Positions 2,071 to 11,064 of a stretch of 11,064 bases of DNA are shown piece after piece. The stretch covers positions 1-11,064 of the forward strand of contig JAIRKN010000146.1 of the NCBI GenBank assembly GCA_031260095.1, written 5' to 3'. How positions within the stretch are numbered: the first letter of the stretch is position 1; the number at the start of each line of letters is the position of its first letter. The position numbers and the translations under genes were made by a program. The notes beneath the pieces are model-generated. The model was not told the origin of the DNA. It ran no database searches and saw only the letters and a program-made list of their open reading frames with translations. The stretch is from Tannerella sp. (GTDB lineage Bacteria > Bacteroidota > Bacteroidia > Bacteroidales > Tannerellaceae).

Positions 2071-5000
2071 CTATTTGGAAATGCGTTTTTTCAATACGGT
2101 TTTTCTTTTGATCAGGAACAGTGGCAGGTAGATGAATATGCCGGCCAGAGAGGTGATAAGTCCCCCGATCGTGCCGGCGGCAAGCGGAAACCAGAAGCTC
2201 TCCCTGTCTAATCCTGCCATGAAAGGAATGAATCCGAGAATGGTAGAGATCACGGTCAGGAATATCGGGACGATTTTAATGTTCCAGGCTTTGATATAGG
2301 CTTTCATACGGTTCATACGGGGTTTATGCGTCAGTATCCGGTTGTACTCGTTGACAAGGTATATGCTTGCATTTACGGTAATACCGCATAATAATACGAA
2401 CGAAGCAAAGCCGCCCTGATCAAAGTTTAATCCGAAGAGGTAGAAAGTAAGGAAGACCCCGATATAGGATACGGGTATGACAAAGATAATGGCAAACGGC
2501 TGTTTGAGTGAATTGAACAGGATCGAAGTCATGAAAAAGATAATGAGTATGATCACACCGAGAAACAGGTATTGCTTTTTATCTTTTTTATCCCACCAGA
2601 AATAGCCTTGTTCGTTCTCCGCCGAATATCCGATCGGCAGGTTTTTGTTGAATTGTTCGAGTTCGCGTTCGAGGATTTTATGTCCCTGTTGCGACGACCC
2701 GATGTATTCATATTGCAGGCAGAGCAGGTATTGTTGGTTTTCCTTGACAATGTTCTGCGGCGTTTGCGTTTTTTCGATCGTGGCAAGCGCTCCGGTTTTG
2801 TAATATTTACCGTCCAGGGTACGGCTCATATTGGCAAGGCTCCAGAGATCGTAGAGGCGGCTTTGCTTCGATGACGTTTTTATATTCTCAATCTGCTCGT
2901 CGCCGTTTACATATCCGCAAAGGAGATCGCGTCCGAACACAGGGCTTACGGACGCATATAATTCATAAGGACGTATGTCTTCGCTTGCCATACGTTTACG
3001 GTCGAGGCTGAACGTATATTCATGGTAGTCTTCTTTATACCATGAAAACCGGGAGTTGATAATGACTTCTTTGATGCGGCGATATGTCAGCAGACGTTCG
3101 CGTAATGCGCCGGCATGGAGGTACAGATCGTCATAGTTGTATCCGTATATTTTCACGCGCATACTTCCCGCATTTTCGCGCACGTCGTTACTGAATCCAT
3201 GATCCCGCAACCCGTAAACACCCCAGCTACCTCCGCCCAACTGCAACGCTTTTGATATGACATTGCTTCTCAATTGATACGGGAATCCGGTTTTTTCCGC
3301 GCTTTCCGTGAATAGCACCTGGATATTTGCCTGTCGCGGATTAGAGATACTGGTTTGAAACTGGCGTATTTCTTTAAACCGGCTCAGGTAGCTTTCCATT
3401 TGCCGGATGATCCGGTTCATCTGCTCGATCGTTGTTCCGTTCGGCATCGAAGCGGCGATGGTCAGTCTTGTTTCGTCGTTACCGGAAAAATAGCTGCCGT
3501 CAAACACCTTTCGGACAAAAAGACACAGCGTGCCTCCCAGTGATTTCTCCAGAATGGGACGTACTTTCTCCTTGAAAGTGGTCGAGCCGGCTATCTCGTT
3601 GTAACGCTTGGCAAAACCGCTTTCTCCTTCTATCTTTTCCGGGATCATGAATACCGGAAGTCCGAAAGCCAAAACCAGCAGAATGATCACTAAAGGACGT
3701 AACCGCAACAGAAACCGGATCATTGAAAAGTAAAATGTATTGAAATAAACAACCGCTTTCCGGGGGTTAAAGCGTAGCCTTTTCACCTTTAGCCGGATCT
3801 GTTTCCGTTTGATCTTCATATTCTCAATGACGGCCGGTACGAGTAATAAGGAAACAGCGAGTGAAACCGTCAGATTGATTATCACTACGGCGGCAAAATC
3901 CTGCAGGTTCAGCCGTATCTTTTCGTTCAGAAAGAAGATCATAGCCAACGCCCCGACCGTTGTAAGGGTGGCTGCGAAAATGGAAAGGAATACTTTCCGG
4001 TCATGGTTACGCAGGTAATGATCTGCCATGATAATCGTGTTATCAATGATGAGGCTCAGTGAAATAGTGATACCCGCCAGTGAGTAGAGTTGTATCTCAA
4101 GGCCTAACACATAGTACAGGATAAAAGCGATGGAAATGTTGAAGTACAGGCTGAGGATGATGAGCAGCAGGTAGCGGACGTTGAACGTGGTAAGGAATAC
4201 GAACAACAGGAGGATCAGTACGGTAAAAAAGGTGCGGATATATATTTTATTGAGTTCCTTACGGATGTGTTCGGTCGCATCATAATTGATATGCAACTCA
4301 TAGCCCTTCGGTAATCCCCGTTTGATTTCCGCTATTTTATCTTTTACCGCTTCGCTGAGGCGCAACTGGTTGGCATTTTCCGTCGCGGTCAGGGTGATAT
4401 AGATGGAGTTTAATCCGTTGATGCGGTAATAGCTGGCGGGCGGTTCTTCCCGGTAGTTGACGGAAACAAGCCGGTCGAGGCATATCATACGTCCTGCTTT
4501 GTCTTCCAGGTAGATATCCTCGGCATGAAAGCCCCTGTTCTTCTCTCTCTTACCGGTGGTCAGGGAGAGGCGCATATATTTTTTTTCCGCACTCCCGCTC
4601 TCGATCAGCACCATGCCCAACGACTCTTTTTTATTATGCGCCTCGATCGCGTTCCTCACATCGGATACGGTGATACCTAATGCGTCTAATTGGTGGATGT
4701 CATATTCGAGCAGCCATTCCATAGGAGTTGCGCCGTATACGTCTATTTTGTATAGATCCGGAATCAGGGCCAGTACCGGTTTGATATGTTCTTCTGCGTA
4801 CCGTTGGATGACAACGGGTGGCGCCATAGCGTCAATGTTGTATGAAATAAACGGGCGGGTCGAGCTTTCATCCGGCAGGTTGACGTAGATGACAGGGTAG
4901 GAGGCGGAGCTTGGAAGGCTGGGCCATGTCCGGCGTACAATGGTAGATGCTTCAAACCGGACCATATCCATCGAAGCGTGCTTGTCCAGTTCGAGCGTAA

Positions 5001-5265
5001 TACTTCCGTAATGGTTGCCGGAGGTCGATATAATATTCTTCACTCCACTGATACGCGCCAGCATAGCTTCCAGCCGGGAGGTCGCCTCCATCTCAACGAT
5101 GCGGGCGGAGCTGCCGTTCATATTGAACCGGACGGTCAGACTGGGCAATGCGCGCGAAGGCGACAGTTTGACCGTCAGGGAGGGTATGACTGCTATGCCG
5201 ATTAATGAAACCGCCACAAATGCGACGATTACGGTAAAAGATGATATGCGCGATTTATTTTTCAA
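2071..5265 (-). CDS. Second, divergent RND-family efflux permease
   Basis: This 1064-residue protein has full RND length and layout: an N-terminal membrane helix (about residues 8-28), a large periplasmic porter region, a membrane bundle about 335-490, a second porter region about 545-870, and a final bundle about 880-1055. In the helix-4 relay motif SLIIDNTII, Asp408 is kept where AcrB has Asp407, and Asn follows where AcrB has Asp408. In helix 10, GITVNASIY has Asn965 where AcrB has the relay lysine. It is clearly unlike the other permease in this operon. The start is a TTG at 5265; no ATG lies upstream before the stop shared with the channel gene, and the next Met (about residue 49) would remove the first membrane helix. 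It lies 27 nt after the channel gene and is the last gene of the operon. It probably works with the upstream adaptor and channel in export; its substrate is unknown. Confidence 0.95.
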   Translation of the reverse strand: MKNKSRISSFTVIVAFVAVSLIGIAVIPSLTVKLSPSRALPSLTVRFNMNGSSARIVEMEATSRLEAMLARISGVKNIISTSGNHYGSITLELDKHASMDMVRFEASTIVRRTWPSLPSSASYPVIYVNLPDESSTRPFISYNIDAMAPPVVIQRYAEEHIKPVLALIPDLYKIDVYGATPMEWLLEYDIHQLDALGITVSDVRNAIEAHNKKESLGMVLIESGSAEKKYMRLSLTTGKREKNRGFHAEDIYLEDKAGRMICLDRLVSVNYREEPPASYYRINGLNSIYITLTATENANQLRLSEAVKDKIAEIKRGLPKGYELHINYDATEHIRKELNKIYIRTFFTVLILLLFVFLTTFNVRYLLLIILSLYFNISIAFILYYVLGLEIQLYSLAGITISLSLIIDNTIIMADHYLRNHDRKVFLSIFAATLTTVGALAMIFFLNEKIRLNLQDFAAVVIINLTVSLAVSLLLVPAVIENMKIKRKQIRLKVKRLRFNPRKAVVYFNTFYFSMIRFLLRLRPLVIILLVLAFGLPVFMIPEKIEGESGFAKRYNEIAGSTTFKEKVRPILEKSLGGTLCLFVRKVFDGSYFSGNDETRLTIAASMPNGTTIEQMNRIIRQMESYLSRFKEIRQFQTSISNPRQANIQVLFTESAEKTGFPYQLRSNVISKALQLGGGSWGVYGLRDHGFSNDVRENAGSMRVKIYGYNYDDLYLHAGALRERLLTYRRIKEVIINSRFSWYKEDYHEYTFSLDRKRMASEDIRPYELYASVSPVFGRDLLCGYVNGDEQIENIKTSSKQSRLYDLWSLANMSRTLDGKYYKTGALATIEKTQTPQNIVKENQQYLLCLQYEYIGSSQQGHKILERELEQFNKNLPIGYSAENEQGYFWWDKKDKKQYLFLGVIILIIFFMTSILFNSLKQPFAIIFVIPVSYIGVFLTFYLFGLNFDQGGFASFVLLCGITVNASIYLVNEYNRILTHKPRMNRMKAYIKAWNIKIVPIFLTVISTILGFIPFMAGLDRESFWFPLAAGTIGGLITSLAGIFIYLPLFLIKRKTVLKKRISK

Positions 5266-5292: not shown

Positions 5293-6966
5293 TTAGCGGT
5301 GCATCGTTAAGAGTCTTTCAACGGTCGACGAAATCGGGACGTTGTACTCGAAATCGTAGAGTGTCAGTTTCCGTATTTTGAAATAACTGACCCAGTAATT
5401 TTCCAGTGCAGAGATATAATTGCGCCGTGCTTCCTGTTGGCGTTGGCGCGAGAGGGTGAGCGTACTGATATCGGCTTTACCGATCATAAAACGCTGCCGC
5501 GTCTTGCTATATGCGTCGTCGGCAATGACAAGCGCCTCTTCCGCAGAGCGAATCAGGTCTTTTTGTATGTTGAAATCGCCGACCGTCATGATAATGTCTT
5601 CTTCAATTTTTACTTCTCCCTGACGGGCCGTTATTTCCGTTACGTTCAGGTTGTTTCGGGCCATGTTGTATTTCCCTCGTCGCACGCCCCAGTCTATAAG
5701 AGGGATGGATATGCTCAACGAAACGATGTCCTGGCGCAACGGATCACGGTAAACACCGGCGAGCGAGCCGGCTACCTGGTTGTATCCGACGCTGGCCGTT
5801 ATGGAGGCGTTGAACATGGATTCCTTTTTGCTCCTGTCCACCTGTTGCTGCCTCTCAAGAATCTCCTGTTTATATCCGAGCAGGTCGGGATTATTGGCGC
5901 GCGCTTCTGCCAGCGCTTTTTCGACGGATATATCCATCGTTTTCGGGTAGCTGGGCAGTCGAAGACGTATCGGCGTGTTTTTATCCATGTTCAGGAAGGA
6001 CGTCAGGGCGAACATCGCACGTTTCAGGGTGATGTCCGCATTTTTCAGCGAGTTGACGGCATTAATCCGGTCTAATTTCAGCGTGAGCAGATCCGATTGG
6101 CTGATAGCGGCGATTTTATAACGTTCTTCGCCGATGCGATAGAGTGTATCCGTATTGCGTACATTTTCTTCTGCCAGATCATATTCCGACTGGGCCATCG
6201 CCAGACTGAAAAAGTAGGTAGCCGCTAATCCGGCCGTATTTTCCAGGTCATATATCAGCTTTTTCCCGGCTTTCTCATATTTCAACGGTTCTATTTTCTT
6301 CTCCCATTTGAACGCATTATATCCGATCAGATCCTGCCGGTATCCGATACGTACGGGGACGGATGTATACTGTGTATCCGTCTGGTCTCCGAAGTTACGC
6401 AGATAATCCAGATTCGAATGCAGGAAAAAAGTGCCGCCCAGCAGATCGAAATTTTGTGCGATCGAAAGGCCGCCGTATGTTTCGAAAGCTTGCTGCGGAC
6501 GGTAGATATCAATATCCGATTCCGAATCATAACGTTTGATGATCGTACGGTTATATTCTCCGGGGGTCAGGTTCAGCGTCAGGCTGGGCAGTCTGCCGGC
6601 TTTGAATGAACGGTATTCCCAGTAGCTTGACATATAGACATTCTTCGAACGGAACGCCTCGAGCGAGCTGTCGCCGGCCAATACGATCGTATTCTCAAGC
6701 GTCAGCGTAACGGGGGCCGCCCTTTCATACTGCGCCGCCGCCGGTATGACCGCCGCAAAAAGGAAGCCAAGGAATGCCGCAGATAACCGTTTTTTTGTTC
6801 GAGCCGTTCGAACCGCCTTGTTCGAGCCGTTCGAACAACACTGCTTGGGCGCACCCGCCCAACACTGCTTGGACGCAGCCGCCCAACATGCTTGGACGCA
6901 CCTGCCCAACATGCTTGGACACACCCGTCCAACATGCTTGGACGCGCCCGCCCGGCCGGAGCACAC
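5293..6966 (-). CDS. TolC-type outer-membrane efflux channel (OEP family); 5' end displaced by tandem repeats
   Basis: The body is a full outer-membrane efflux protein with two OEP repeats, roughly residues 215-320 and 345-540 counted from the GTG at 6966. It should form the trimeric exit duct of the pump. A Sec signal peptide is plain at residues 58-79: KKR, a hydrophobic run, and a PAAAQ cleavage region. It is preceded in this frame by about 57 residues of Cys/Trp-rich repeat-encoded sequence, which is abnormal. In-frame starts are only the GTG at 6966 and an ATG at 6912, both in or beside the array; the frame is closed upstream by TGA at 6999-6997. The natural start is probably the ATG at 7000, which overlaps the upstream permease stop but reads in another frame. 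As written, the coupled start does not yield the channel. Family call is firm; the true N-terminus and expression state are uncertain. Confidence 0.9.
   Translation of the reverse strand: MCSGRAGASKHVGRVCPSMLGRCVQACWAAASKQCWAGAPKQCCSNGSNKAVRTARTKKRLSAAFLGFLFAAVIPAAAQYERAAPVTLTLENTIVLAGDSSLEAFRSKNVYMSSYWEYRSFKAGRLPSLTLNLTPGEYNRTIIKRYDSESDIDIYRPQQAFETYGGLSIAQNFDLLGGTFFLHSNLDYLRNFGDQTDTQYTSVPVRIGYRQDLIGYNAFKWEKKIEPLKYEKAGKKLIYDLENTAGLAATYFFSLAMAQSEYDLAEENVRNTDTLYRIGEERYKIAAISQSDLLTLKLDRINAVNSLKNADITLKRAMFALTSFLNMDKNTPIRLRLPSYPKTMDISVEKALAEARANNPDLLGYKQEILERQQQVDRSKKESMFNASITASVGYNQVAGSLAGVYRDPLRQDIVSLSISIPLIDWGVRRGKYNMARNNLNVTEITARQGEVKIEEDIIMTVGDFNIQKDLIRSAEEALVIADDAYSKTRQRFMIGKADISTLTLSRQRQQEARRNYISALENYWVSYFKIRKLTLYDFEYNVPISSTVERLLTMHR
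6790..6796 (-). repeat. A7 homopolymer at the repeat / signal-peptide junction
   Basis: Seven A residues on the coding strand fall exactly where the repeat-encoded leader meets the KKRL start of the signal peptide. Losing one A would put the ATG at 7000 in frame with the channel, so the run is a possible slippage site in DNA or RNA and also a possible place for a sequencing error. Confidence 0.6.
6797..6836. repeat. Two direct copies of a 17-bp interrupted palindrome
   Basis: The 17-mer gttcgagccgttcgaac occurs identically at 6797-6813 and 6820-6836, so the period is 23 bp, the same as the neighbouring array. Each copy has 6-bp arms (gttcga / tcgaac) around a 5-nt centre and could form an RNA hairpin or bind a two-fold symmetric protein. 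It lies between the larger array and the signal-peptide codons of the channel gene, and may be a diverged part of the same repeat family. Confidence 0.85.
6836..6952. repeat. Five tandem 23/24-bp GC-rich units at the start of the channel gene
   Basis: On the plus strand the units begin caaca(c)tgcttgg and lie at 6836-6859 and 6860-6883 (24 bp, with an extra c), then 6884-6906, 6907-6929 and 6930-6952 (23 bp). They differ at a few positions, so the array is not brand new. No unit creates a stop in any frame. The 23-bp units change the reading frame with each gain or loss; the 24-bp ones do not. Each carries ccaa and ttgg arms around a 5-6-nt centre. The array is much more GC-rich than its surroundings. 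There are no unique spacers between units, so it is not a CRISPR. Confidence 0.9.
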
Positions 6967-6996
6967 CGGGGATTCCTGTCTTCCGTATATTGTTTT

Positions 6997-7000
6997 TCAT
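6997..7000 (-). promoter_or_regulatory. ATGA stop/start overlap (translational coupling site)
   Basis: The permease stop TGA (6999-6997) shares two bases with an ATG (7000-6998). Such overlaps usually let the terminating ribosome restart on the next gene. This is the main argument that the channel gene was built to start here and not at the GTG inside the array region. Confidence 0.65.
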
Positions 7001-10000
7001 TTGTTCGTTGGTTTATTTTTAACATCAGGGTATATTTCTTTTTTGTTCCGCGCATAGATTCGCCAGTATACGAGCGGTATGACGGAGAGGCTTACAAGCG
7101 TGCCGACGAGCATGGACGAGATCATAGCGACGGCCAGCGGTTTTTGTATTTCCGACCCCAGGTCACCGGCAAATAGCATCGGAACCATAGCGACTACTGT
7201 TGTCAGCGAGGTCATGATGATCGCCCTCAGTCGGCGGTGGCCTGCCGTATGGATGGCTTCCATCAGCGGAACGTTCTTTTTACGCAGTTCGTTGATCATA
7301 TCAATCTTTAGTATGGAATCGTTGATGATGATACCGCATGTCACAACGATACCGATCGCGCTCATCAGGTTGAGCGTGTGACCGAATAGCCATAAGGCGA
7401 TAAGCGCTACCGTCACATCAATGGGGATTTCTATCAGGACGATCAACGGTTGCAGGAAGCTTTCGAACTGGGCCGCGAGGATGAAGTACATGAGCAGGAT
7501 GGATATCATCAGGATAACGATCAGTTCGTTCAGCATCTTTTTATTTGAGAAGTAACTGCCGGAAAAGTTTACATCCCACATTTTCATCCGACCGATCTCT
7601 TCTTTGGTTTTGCTCATCAGGCTTTCCGCATCTTTTACGTGCGGATAGGAAACCGGGATATATTCGTCGTTTCTGCCGGCCACGATTGTTTTAAGTCCTT
7701 CCGTCGGAACAATGGAAACGAAATAACTTAAAGGGATCTGTTGCTGTTCTTCCGGAATATTGGTACGGACGAGCGTCCGGTTAATAATTTCGTTGATCGT
7801 CTGTTCTTCCCCGGCAATGGTGATCGGCAGGTATTGCTGATAGGAGCGTAGCGTGGTGATCTGATTCTCGCGGAAAGCTGTTTTGAGGATTTGTTCGATG
7901 ACGGAATATGATACATGGTAAAGGAGCAATTTCTCCTGATCTACATGGATGCTCATCTCTTTTTCGAACGTAACCCCTTCGGAGCGTTCGCCGGATAATT
8001 CCTCCAGTCTGCCTTCTATCTCCCGGATTTCATCGGCTTCCGGCGTATTTTGCCGGTTACTGTGATACAGTTCCGTCACGAGATCGGACTCCCCGGTTAC
8101 GAAAATCTTTTCAAAAACAGTTTCCGGTGGAGCGAATGATGCGACGGCCGCCGGATACCGGCTTTTTATCAGGCTACTTATTTTCGCCTGTACCTGCCCG
8201 GCCAGCCGTGCGTTTTTTGCTTTTATATACAGTTCGCTTTCAGACGTAGGCATCTTACGTTCATTATCCAAAATAAACTGTTGCCGTCCGATGTAGGCGG
8301 AGTGTTCGAGCGCCAACGAATCTATTTCACGGCACAGGTGATTCATACGGGCGCGGTTTTCGTCTAAGTGGATATTTTCCCCCCAGTCGATATGCGTCAA
8401 TAGTTCTACCTGGTCTATCGCAGGCATACCTGTCTTCGGTATCATCCGAAACATCAGTACGCAAAGCGGAACGACGGCGATGATAAGAATCGCATGGAAT
8501 GTTTTGTGTGCAAAGGTAAAATCAATCAGGCGGTCGTACCAGTTAAAAAGCCTTTTATTTCCACGCTCCCGGTATTGCCGGACACGTCCGCCCGGATCAC
8601 GCCTTGTGAAATTCTTTGCGTACACTAACTTGTATAACACGGGTAGCAGCATAACGCCGGTAAAATAGGAGATCAGTAATCCGACGGAGACGGAGAATGC
8701 TTCATCTACAAAGATCGCGCCGGCTATACCGCTCAGGAAAATAAGCGGGAAGAACACGGCGATAGTGGTCAATGTAGAACTCAGCATCGGTGTGATCACT
8801 TCGGTTGTTCCTTTGATACAGGCTTCTTCGAGCGGCAGGCCCCGTTCGCGGTACTGGCTTATATTTTCTGTGGTGATGATGGCGTTGTCGATCATCATAC
8901 CCAATGCGAGGATCAATCCCGAAAGCGAGATGATATTCAATGATTTTCCGAAAAAGAAAAAGAATTGGAAACACATAATCAGCGATACAATCATACTGAT
9001 TCCAATGATCGCCGGCGATTTTGCGTCGCCCAGAAATAAGAATGCTACCACGCAGATCAGTATAAATCCCATGACGAAGTTCTCCTTGAGGTTAGAGATC
9101 GTATAATCCAATAATTCCGTCTGATTCCGGTTGACCGTAAATTCGATGTCGGGATAAAGCGCGCGAAAATGTGAGATCGTACTGTTCAAAGCCTCTTTCA
9201 GGTCGTTCATGTTCTCGGCGGACTGTTTGATGATGGCCAATGTGACCGCCCGTTTTCCATTGACGACCGAAAATCCGCGCTCTTCCTCCGGTACGATTTT
9301 TACCGAGCAGAGGTCCTTTAGCTGGTAAATGCGGTCTGCCTTGCGGAGGTAGATATTTTCAATGTCTTCGGTCGTATGCAGCAGGGAGGAGAATTTTACA
9401 TTATATTCGTAATATCCATCACGTATCACCATACTTCCGGCCTCAATATTATTGTTTTTGATCGCCGATTCGATATCGGTAAGTGTGATACCGGCAATTT
9501 CCAGTTTATTCATGTCGGGCATGATCTGCACCCGGCTGGCTACCACGCCGGTCGCGTCTGCCATCGTAACTTCGGGCAACTGTTCAATACGCCGCTTGAT
9601 CACCGTTTCGGCAAACTCGCTCATCGTCAGGAAACGTTCGATATCCGTATCCCCATACCGGGGGTCGTCTTTGAGTGTCAGGTTCAGGTAGAACACCGGC
9701 AGATCCGTCGCGCTGGCTTTGATCACGCGGGGACGCTCAAGGTCGCGCGGCATCGTATTCATCGCCGCGTCGATCTTTTCATTGACCTCGATAAAAGCCA
9801 GGTTGATGTTTGTGCCGTAATCAAAACGCAGGTTCACTTGCGCACTCCCGTCGCGCGTTTCACTTTTTATATCCCGTAACCGCGTTACCTGCATCAGATG
9901 TCTGCGCAGTGAGGTCGCCACCGTATTTTCCACTTCCCGCGCCGAACTGTTCGGCATGGATACCTGCACGGTAATATCCGGTATCGGAATATCGGGAAGC

Positions 10001-10101
10001 AATGAAACCGGCAACGTAAAATACGTAATCACGCCGATAATCACCATCGCCAGGAACGCCATCAGTACGGCAATAGGCCGTTGTATCAAAAACTTAACCA
10101 T
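6997..10101 (-). CDS. AcrB-type RND efflux permease (HAE family)
   Basis: This 1034-residue inner-membrane pump has standard RND length. The N-terminus (IQRPIAVLM, then a membrane helix and LLPDIPIPDITV) is typical of the drug-exporting RND branch. A first porter region (about 40-330) is followed by membrane helices 2-6, a second porter region (about 550-850), and helices 8-12, including the AAQFESFLQPLIV stretch. Helix 4 reads GMMIDNAII: Asp405 matches AcrB Asp407, and the second Asp is Asn. Helix 10 reads GIIINDSIL, with Asn927 at the AcrB lysine position; Asn here is common in RND pumps outside the Enterobacteria, so it need not mean loss of function. It would take substrate from periplasm or membrane and pass it to the channel, driven by protons. 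The ATG at 10101 lies 15 nt after the adaptor gene; its stop overlaps the ATG of the next gene. Confidence 0.97.
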   Translation of the reverse strand: MVKFLIQRPIAVLMAFLAMVIIGVITYFTLPVSLLPDIPIPDITVQVSMPNSSAREVENTVATSLRRHLMQVTRLRDIKSETRDGSAQVNLRFDYGTNINLAFIEVNEKIDAAMNTMPRDLERPRVIKASATDLPVFYLNLTLKDDPRYGDTDIERFLTMSEFAETVIKRRIEQLPEVTMADATGVVASRVQIMPDMNKLEIAGITLTDIESAIKNNNIEAGSMVIRDGYYEYNVKFSSLLHTTEDIENIYLRKADRIYQLKDLCSVKIVPEEERGFSVVNGKRAVTLAIIKQSAENMNDLKEALNSTISHFRALYPDIEFTVNRNQTELLDYTISNLKENFVMGFILICVVAFLFLGDAKSPAIIGISMIVSLIMCFQFFFFFGKSLNIISLSGLILALGMMIDNAIITTENISQYRERGLPLEEACIKGTTEVITPMLSSTLTTIAVFFPLIFLSGIAGAIFVDEAFSVSVGLLISYFTGVMLLPVLYKLVYAKNFTRRDPGGRVRQYRERGNKRLFNWYDRLIDFTFAHKTFHAILIIAVVPLCVLMFRMIPKTGMPAIDQVELLTHIDWGENIHLDENRARMNHLCREIDSLALEHSAYIGRQQFILDNERKMPTSESELYIKAKNARLAGQVQAKISSLIKSRYPAAVASFAPPETVFEKIFVTGESDLVTELYHSNRQNTPEADEIREIEGRLEELSGERSEGVTFEKEMSIHVDQEKLLLYHVSYSVIEQILKTAFRENQITTLRSYQQYLPITIAGEEQTINEIINRTLVRTNIPEEQQQIPLSYFVSIVPTEGLKTIVAGRNDEYIPVSYPHVKDAESLMSKTKEEIGRMKMWDVNFSGSYFSNKKMLNELIVILMISILLMYFILAAQFESFLQPLIVLIEIPIDVTVALIALWLFGHTLNLMSAIGIVVTCGIIINDSILKIDMINELRKKNVPLMEAIHTAGHRRLRAIIMTSLTTVVAMVPMLFAGDLGSEIQKPLAVAMISSMLVGTLVSLSVIPLVYWRIYARNKKEIYPDVKNKPTNK

Positions 10102-10116
10102 AATAGTAAGGAAGCA

Positions 10117-11064
10117 TTAATCCCCGTCCCCGGTTAATCTGACATTTGTTCCGTCCGCCAGATGTTCATTTCCGCTGATAATAATCTCATCTCCTTCCTG
10201 AAGTGTTTTGCCTGTGATCGAGTAATGTGTGGCGTTTTCGAATCCGGTATCCACATAATTCCATGCCGCTTTACCGTCTTTGTAGGCAAATACCACCTGT
10301 TTACCGGTACGCAGTACGACGGCCGTTTTCGGAACGACCCACTGTTTGCCCAGCGAGCGGAATACGCTGATGCGGACGTTCATCCCGTTGAACATTTTCG
10401 GATGCGGCTGTATATACGCTTTCACGCGCACGGTGCCTTCTTTGTCCACACTGGGGTTGATGCCGGCGATGCTTCCTGCCGATTCGATATCCGGCGAAGC
10501 ATAAGATTGGATCCGAACCTTATCGCCCGTTTTTATGAGAGCCAGATCATTCTCAAGAATCTTGAAATCCACCTCCGGTTTCCCTTCGCTGATAATCGTG
10601 CAGAACGGCTCCGAAGCATCAATCGAGCAGTAAGGCTTGGAAAACAGGTTGGCCACCGTGCCGGCTATCGGGGTTTTCAGTGTGGCATTATCTAAGTTAT
10701 ATTTTGCGAGGTCATATTGTATTCGGGCGCTGTTGTATCCGCTTCGGATATTGGCCAGTCGGAGCAGATCCTGCGGAATGGACGTTGAGTCGGCGAGTGA
10801 ATATCCCTGCCCGATCAATACATCCTGTAGTTCAAGATACGCCTTTTGCAGGTTATCCTCCGCTTGCCGGCAACTGTTAGAGAGTTGAAACGTATCCAGC
10901 ATCGCAATGGAAGTTCCTGCCGCAACGCGGTCGCCGTTCTTCACAAATATCCGTACCGGAATATTTCCTGATGATAACGACACAAATTGCAATTCCGCCA
11001 CCTGTTGCGCACTGATCCGCCCGTTACTCACCAACTCATGCTCAAAGTCGACGGTACGCAACGT
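10117..11064 (-). CDS. Periplasmic adaptor (membrane fusion protein, HlyD/AcrA type), 5' end outside window
   Basis: The frame is open to the right edge, so the signal peptide and true start are missing; the visible part is 315 codons. It begins just before the first half of the lipoyl/barrel-sandwich domain (GNIPVRIFVKNGDRVAAG), continues into a helical hairpin of about 80 residues rich in Leu and Gln, returns to the second lipoyl half (ATLKTPIAGTVANLF), and ends in beta-barrel and membrane-proximal domains (MNGMNVRIS-like stretch, VVPKTAVV, then GDEIIISG). This order is diagnostic of RND adaptors. It bridges the inner-membrane pump and the TolC-type channel and is the first visible gene of the operon. 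The operon promoter must lie to the right of the window. A TTG at 11061 is a possible start in the visible part but would cut off the export signal. Confidence 0.95.
   Translation of the reverse strand, partial: TLRTVDFEHELVSNGRISAQQVAELQFVSLSSGNIPVRIFVKNGDRVAAGTSIAMLDTFQLSNSCRQAEDNLQKAYLELQDVLIGQGYSLADSTSIPQDLLRLANIRSGYNSARIQYDLAKYNLDNATLKTPIAGTVANLFSKPYCSIDASEPFCTIISEGKPEVDFKILENDLALIKTGDKVRIQSYASPDIESAGSIAGINPSVDKEGTVRVKAYIQPHPKMFNGMNVRISVFRSLGKQWVVPKTAVVLRTGKQVVFAYKDGKAAWNYVDTGFENATHYSITGKTLQEGDEIIISGNEHLADGTNVRLTGDGD

Follow-up and report, generated by a model that had tools for sequence, protein, structure and literature searches.

A 23/24-bp tandem array separates a probable native start codon from the body of an efflux channel gene in a Tannerella draft genome

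Introduction

Porphyromonas gingivalis is another member of the Bacteroidales, and Bacteroides belongs to the same order as the Tannerella sp. whose DNA is considered here. Both have given rise to descriptions against which the present locus can be set. The nearest named thing in form is BrickBuilt, a minisatellite/MITE of P. gingivalis that, according to its description, consists of 23-nt tandem units without spacers, is present in 19 forms in one genome, carries leader and tail subunits with small inverted-repeat ends, is always intergenic, shows promoter activity and has been proposed to influence neighbouring genes (PMC4596501). Coding repeats are another point of comparison. In pathogenic bacteria these are stated to concentrate towards the N-terminus, a position at which frameshifts could be of use in phase variation, and mutation is said to be more frequent in longer and purer repeat tracts (PMC3899988). 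For Bacteroides the mechanism of phase variation given in the accessible text is DNA inversion (PMC11868660). Non-triplet repeats at gene starts are already known as a kind of arrangement. We report here an efflux channel gene having such a repeat over its 5' end, which adds to the known kind a private 23/24-bp hairpin-forming unit, an ATG in each frame, an efflux channel as the affected gene and the numbers of arrays found in some genomes of the genus.

Results

The window, by which we mean the whole 11,064-nucleotide stretch that was analysed, is contig C84 of a draft genome of 1.83 Mb in 284 contigs with a completeness of 73.3%. It carries genes for a periplasmic adaptor, an RND permease, a TolC-type outer-membrane channel and a second RND permease in this order and all in one direction (Table 1), and the adaptor, RND permease and OEP channel of an RND tripartite efflux operon are all present. 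Compared with other such operons having a TolC-type channel, the genes and their direction are the same and the window differs only at the 5' end of the channel gene, which is also the only unusual part of that gene. CmeC was the sole solved-structure match to the channel and a weak one (E 7e-4). At positions 3-1472 there is also an open frame of 490 aa, cut by the contig end, that gave no Pfam or NCBIfam match at E 0.001.

Table 1 Features of the efflux locus (window coordinates)
Feature	Position	Strand	Remarks
RND_mfp periplasmic adaptor	10117..11064	-	NCBIfam TIGR01730, 131.5 bits vs cut-off 94.9; 5' end lost at contig end
Upstream RND permease	6997..10101	-	ORF of 1034 aa; Pfam ACR_tran E 1e-175; stop TGA 6999-6997 overlaps ATG 7000
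ATG in ATGA overlap with permease stop, probable ancestral channel start	6998..7000	-	Out of frame with channel body here
91-aa ORF MKNNIRKTGIPG... from ATG 7000	6725..7000	-	Crosses array and overlaps first part of channel frame
GTG, sole channel-frame ATG/GTG/TTG of 6690-7010 outside array	6964..6966	-	Frame reading
Tandem array, ~5 units, spacings 23, 23, 24, 24	6836..6953	-	TRF period 23, 5.0 copies, 88% matches
ATG within array, channel frame	6910..6912	-	First codon of public gene call P0001 (539 aa)
Two further units, 19 identical nt, 23-bp spacing, dyad TTCGA...TCGAA	6795..6836	-	Continue array with different core
TolC-type outer-membrane efflux channel, called from array ATG	5293..6912	-	Pfam OEP E 6e-31; public entry P0001
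Second RND permease, downstream, codirectional	2071..5265	-	ORF; Pfam ACR_tran E 1e-89

The original prediction placed a coupled channel start at ATG 7000, and the overlap it relied on is as described, with the permease stop TGA (6999-6997) overlapping ATG 7000-6998 on the minus strand. In the sequence as assembled this ATG is out of register with the channel, as was also claimed: neither the signal-peptide core KKRLSAAFLGFLFAAVIPAAAQ nor the TolC-type body shares its frame (the offset between 7000 and 6966 is 34, which leaves a remainder of 1). What had been overlooked are the starts that the channel frame does contain, which within 6690-7010 are GTG 6966, GTG 6924, ATG 6912 and TTG 6909. The array ATGs lie at 6935, 6912 and 6889, in three units 23 bp apart, with exactly one in each frame.

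The contexts of the candidate starts were compared with those of the channel starts of 25 relatives, which ranged from 0.34 to 0.79 in mean unpaired value, from 0 to -12.1 kcal/mol in fold energy and from 0.04 to 0.32 in upstream GC. ATG 7000 (0.88, -4.7 kcal/mol and 0.24, respectively) is as AT-rich as these starts and even more open. ATG 6912 is set in heavily structured sequence (0.29, -44.3 kcal/mol and 0.60), a context unlike that of all 25 and outside the range in all three measures. For GTG 6966 (0.45, -20.3 kcal/mol and 0.48) the unpaired value is inside the range, and the energy and GC are outside. As the start of the upstream permease, used as a control, itself has a fold energy of -17.5 kcal/mol (unpaired 0.56, upstream GC 0.40), fold energy alone does not exclude GTG 6966. 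Initiation at either ATG 6912 or GTG 6966 would give the signal peptide an n-region of unusual length. The n-region encoded at ATG 7000 is weakly matched in relatives, 3 of 71 having in common an [IF]RKxG n-region and 6 of 71 an M[KR]N beginning (the 71 being P0002-P0072 of the 119 other entries listed). Ribosomal -1 slippage at the A7 run (6790-6796, minus strand) was considered and rejected, as by hand reading it leads from the ATG 7000 frame into the third frame and not into that of the channel.

A tandem array with a TRF period of 23 is present, as predicted, but its units are not uniformly of 23 bp, since spacings of 23, 23, 24 and 24 are followed by the pair of further units at 23 bp. 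The predicted arithmetic, in which gain of one unit or loss of two puts ATG 7000 in frame, is correct for 23-bp steps and fails for 24-bp steps, which leave the frame unchanged. A unit pattern derived from the array itself gave 4 matches at up to 3 mismatches, versus 0.00 expected from 200 shuffles. The array is impure, exact direct repeats within 6771-6990 reaching at most 19 nt. There are no stops across the array in any of the three sense frames, also as claimed, although this by itself is weak evidence because, by a hand estimate, about one in two arrays would be stop-free given one strand, a 23-bp unit and this G+C. The window's unit was not found elsewhere in its own genome (73% complete) at up to 3 mismatches, nor elsewhere in 41 draft genomes of the genus (55-99% complete) at up to 2 mismatches, and on these searches a dispersed repeat family is rejected for this unit, which was found at this locus only.

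The units of 6836-6953 can form hairpins, mostly TTGG...CCAA, and all seven written-out units fold singly into a stem-loop, the first and partial unit having a stem of 5 bp. Between the two unit types the stem letters differ, by eye, on both sides. When hairpin strength was compared with that of 200 shuffled, tiled units, neither of the window's two unit types reached significance (0.16 and 0.10). Among 15 units tested, chosen by eye, 6 reached 0.025 or lower and the others ranged up to 0.765; 12 of these units came from 11 of the 13 arrays of one examined set (from which the long-period coding arrays of L156 and L150 were omitted) and three from the junction arrays of relatives.

The same locus was read in the genus, for which the genome sets hold one genome per species. 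A channel match at E 1e-30 or better was found in 33 of 41 genomes, that of the window included, and 26 of 31 loci, again counting the window, were readable with both genes contiguous. Left out were L001, a duplicate of the window, together with L018, L029, L030 and L031. In every one of the 25 readable relatives an ATG in the channel frame lies at the permease stop or beyond it. The one closest to the stop is no more than 16 nt away in 13 of them, and in two (L022 and L028) the ATGA overlap is identical. The original prediction would have been refuted by relatives lacking an in-frame ATG there, an outcome that was not obtained, and these comparisons agree with a coupled native start at the overlap, making ATG 7000 the probable ancestral start of the channel.

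Repeats are found in the permease-channel gap of several relatives. Arrays of other units occupy this gap in L011 (23 bp, 6.7 copies), L017 (23 bp, 7.2 copies) and L019 (21 bp, 5.7 copies), and all three sit wholly upstream of the channel's own ATG. Repeats of 7-8 bp period, some read as multiples, are present in the gap of L011, L014, L016 and L019. In L014 an AT-rich repeat of period 8 (~1448-1495, with a low score of 50) covers the channel ATG and n-region and leaves the frame open; L014 is thus a second lineage with a repeat extending to the beginning of the channel gene. Among the 26 loci only the window has a 21-24-bp array over the channel start, and only the window has its sole channel-frame ATG inside such an array. 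L010 and L017 contain extra sequence of ~0.8-1.1 kb in the gap.

Two observations on relatives are recorded separately. At ~690-1500 of L017 the permease is separated from the channel by extra genes that by eye resemble a nucleotidyltransferase and HEPN-like pair, beside a 23-bp array. The 571-aa protein P0003 of a relative has, by eye, repeats of ~7 residues in its mature N-terminus just past the signal peptide, such as in-frame growth of a 21-bp array might produce.

Of the 79 named loci that the channel retrieved, 12 belong to Tannerella sp. MAGs (74-87% identical), which also make up nearly all of the closest ones; from the style of their records we take these relatives to be from termite guts. 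Among the best 120 of 2724 protein matches, the closest entry apart from the window's own (P0001, which has one member) shares 89% identity.

The channel body was intact by each of the measures applied. Pairwise dN/dS was 0.05-0.09 in 6 of 7 comparisons, at dS values of 1.0-2.6 that are near saturation, and the seventh comparison was saturated. None of the 149 columns invariant in 17 relatives was changed in the window, compared with 0-8 in 11 leave-one-out controls, and the mean identity of the window to six outgroups was 0.650, with 0.618-0.654 for 11 others. Taken together these values indicate that the body is under normal constraint, with no decay. A decaying pseudogene is unsupported, given the low dN/dS and the unchanged invariant columns, and as the body is constrained the gene is not an old pseudogene, although a recent loss would leave the same picture. 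The intact body would fit a gene that is expressed at least sometimes.

Tandem arrays were also counted elsewhere (TRF score of at least 80), in samples that are unmatched in kind, those of the named Tannerella and of other Bacteroidales consisting of pump loci only. The own genome, sampled as 100 of its 284 contigs plus the window (664 kb), has 13 arrays, 8 with a period of 20-24 and at least 3 copies. G003 (L215-L234) is very dense in arrays, with 96 in 400 kb; 55 have a period of 41-42, and 8 combine a period of 20-24 with 3 copies or more. There were 11 arrays in 269 kb of G007, 6 in 128 kb of named Tannerella pump loci and 9 in 614 kb of pump loci from other Bacteroidales, and each of these three samples contains a single array that has a period of 20-24 and 3 copies or more. 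Array abundance is uneven within the genus. Other G003 arrays have periods of 21-23, 105, 126 and 168 bp, and many of the G003 periods are near multiples of ~21 bp. By eye the units of other arrays are each array's own, with some G003 units looking alike.

Simple ORF calling assigned 8 of the 13 arrays of the own genome to ORFs, some of which are probably spurious; of the others, 3 occupy tandem gaps, one lies in a convergent gap and one at an edge. For the 96 arrays of G003 the corresponding numbers were 39 in ORFs, 39 in tandem gaps, 9 divergent, 6 convergent and 3 at edges. The arrays of L156 and L150 are of long, triplet period and lie inside ORFs, and that of L193, at a contig edge, lies over the 3' end of a psd-like gene. 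A further array, of 20-bp period, covers the 3' end of an ftsW-like gene past its Pfam domain (L208:8923-9120) and is another case in this genome of a non-triplet period extending into a conserved gene.

Discussion

The reading we favour, to which we would assign a probability of only about 0.45, is that a minisatellite over the 5' end of the channel gene has displaced the native start, with synthesis of the channel probably continuing from an in-frame start of lesser strength. The minisatellite, made of hairpin-forming units of 23/24 bp and of a kind that is recurrent in this genome and, unevenly, in the genus, lies between the n-region encoded at ATG 7000 and the signal-peptide core. Channel output would probably be altered, and likely lowered, through initiation in frame within the array or shortly ahead of it, at ATG 6912 or GTG 6966. 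Ribosomes that reinitiate at ATG 7000 might help by opening the array hairpins. Changes in unit number would then alter the level and N-terminus of the channel. A clean ON/OFF switch would not be expected, because each frame holds an array-borne ATG and a change in length need not silence the channel. That the body is constrained while the units have diverged suggests that the channel is probably expressed alongside the array, provided that the array grew in place. The poor context of ATG 6912, the energy and GC of GTG 6966, the long n-region that either start would give and the single 20-24-bp array of at least 3 copies in G007 speak against this reading. As a counterpoint, the window could derive from an array downstream of which a leader and start were lost, as the arrays of L011, L017 and L019 all precede the channel ATG.

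The main rival is reversible switching, in which slippage or recombination alters the number of units and takes ATG 7000 in and out of frame, toggling the channel. The array could act as such a switch: the probable native start is out of frame, the units are mostly non-triplet, the array lies at the 5' end of the gene, the body is intact and ATG 7000 is a good start when compared with the poor ones of the array. A non-triplet coding repeat downstream of the native start, as repeat-mediated phase variation has, is indeed what is found, with the qualifications that some units are of 24 bp and that ATG 7000 is the presumed native start. Set against this are the impurity of the array, with its longest exact repeat of 19 nt and some 24-bp steps, the ATG that it supplies in every frame, albeit in a poor context, and the 21-23-bp arrays of three relatives, which in the same gap fall outside the gene. 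Moreover, the species is represented by a single sequence among the best 120 of 2724 protein matches, hence no length variant could be observed. Overall we consider reversible switching possible, though on balance unlikely.

If the array has instead silenced the channel for good in this strain and decay has not begun, the in-frame starts that are left should be weak, as they are, and the body, if the event was recent, should be intact, as it is. Yet the divergence of the units (88% matches) points to an array of greater age, provided that it grew in place, and not one of the 149 invariant columns has changed, so that we regard a fixed, recent loss as decidedly doubtful. It is still less probable, and indeed very improbable, that the metagenome consensus miscounts units or contains an indel and that ATG 7000 is truly in frame. 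The window is a contig of a fragmented and incomplete draft assembly, and repeats can be confused by mixtures of strains, but words longer than 19 nt should not collapse the array in assembly, as judged from the longest exact direct repeat, and the 24-bp spacing is seen twice rather than once.

In form the array resembles BrickBuilt in its 23-nt tandem units. From BrickBuilt as described, the window's array differs in that it overlaps the 5' end of a gene rather than being intergenic and in that its unit was found at a single locus; because the unit was not found dispersed, we do not place the array in BrickBuilt. For leader and tail ends the comparison is limited to longer sequences, as no inverted-repeat pair of at least 12 nt was found in 6690-7020, a search that shorter ends would escape. 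With coding-repeat phase variation by slipped strands, as presented in the available parts of its descriptions (PMC3899988, PMC11868660), the array shares non-triplet repeats near the 5' end and, in principle, ON/OFF consequences for the frame. It differs in its impurity, its mixture of 23- and 24-bp steps and its ATG in every frame. The likeness to inversion at Bacteroides surface loci is that outer-membrane systems are affected, variable expression being the Bacteroides feature in the accessible text (PMC11868660). The window, with no inverted pair of the above length around the array and no recombinase among the five window proteins scanned against Pfam and NCBIfam, does not show the parts of an invertible promoter, although a recombinase encoded elsewhere is possible given that the contig ends at 11064.

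A broader proposal is that a hairpin minisatellite in the signal-peptide region tunes or toggles the efflux channel and is one of many Tannerella arrays that together provide distributed, slippage-driven regulation. We hold this to be unlikely. If it were true, the many arrays of ~21 bp and its multiples, in and between genes, would form a regulatory layer in some genomes of the Tannerella lineage, and a slippage-type array where an efflux channel gene begins would add a second route of phase variation beside DNA inversion. The numbers found in some genomes (13 arrays in 664 kb here and 96 in 400 kb of G003) make the idea testable at many loci. Even without switching, a minisatellite covers the start of a conserved gene while that gene keeps its constraint. 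A literature search of titles and abstract openings, which took in few subscription journals, found no such arrays in Tannerella or in termite-gut Bacteroidales.

A MITE-like element is also present in the window at 1743-1934, where 21-nt inverted ends (95% complementary) enclose 150 nt. It was found in 6 of 21 genomes searched, and many of its matches across these genomes are of the ends only. Its own genome has 19 matches, itself counted and several partial, followed by G012 with 17, G008 and G042 with 4 each, G017 with 3 and G018 with 1.
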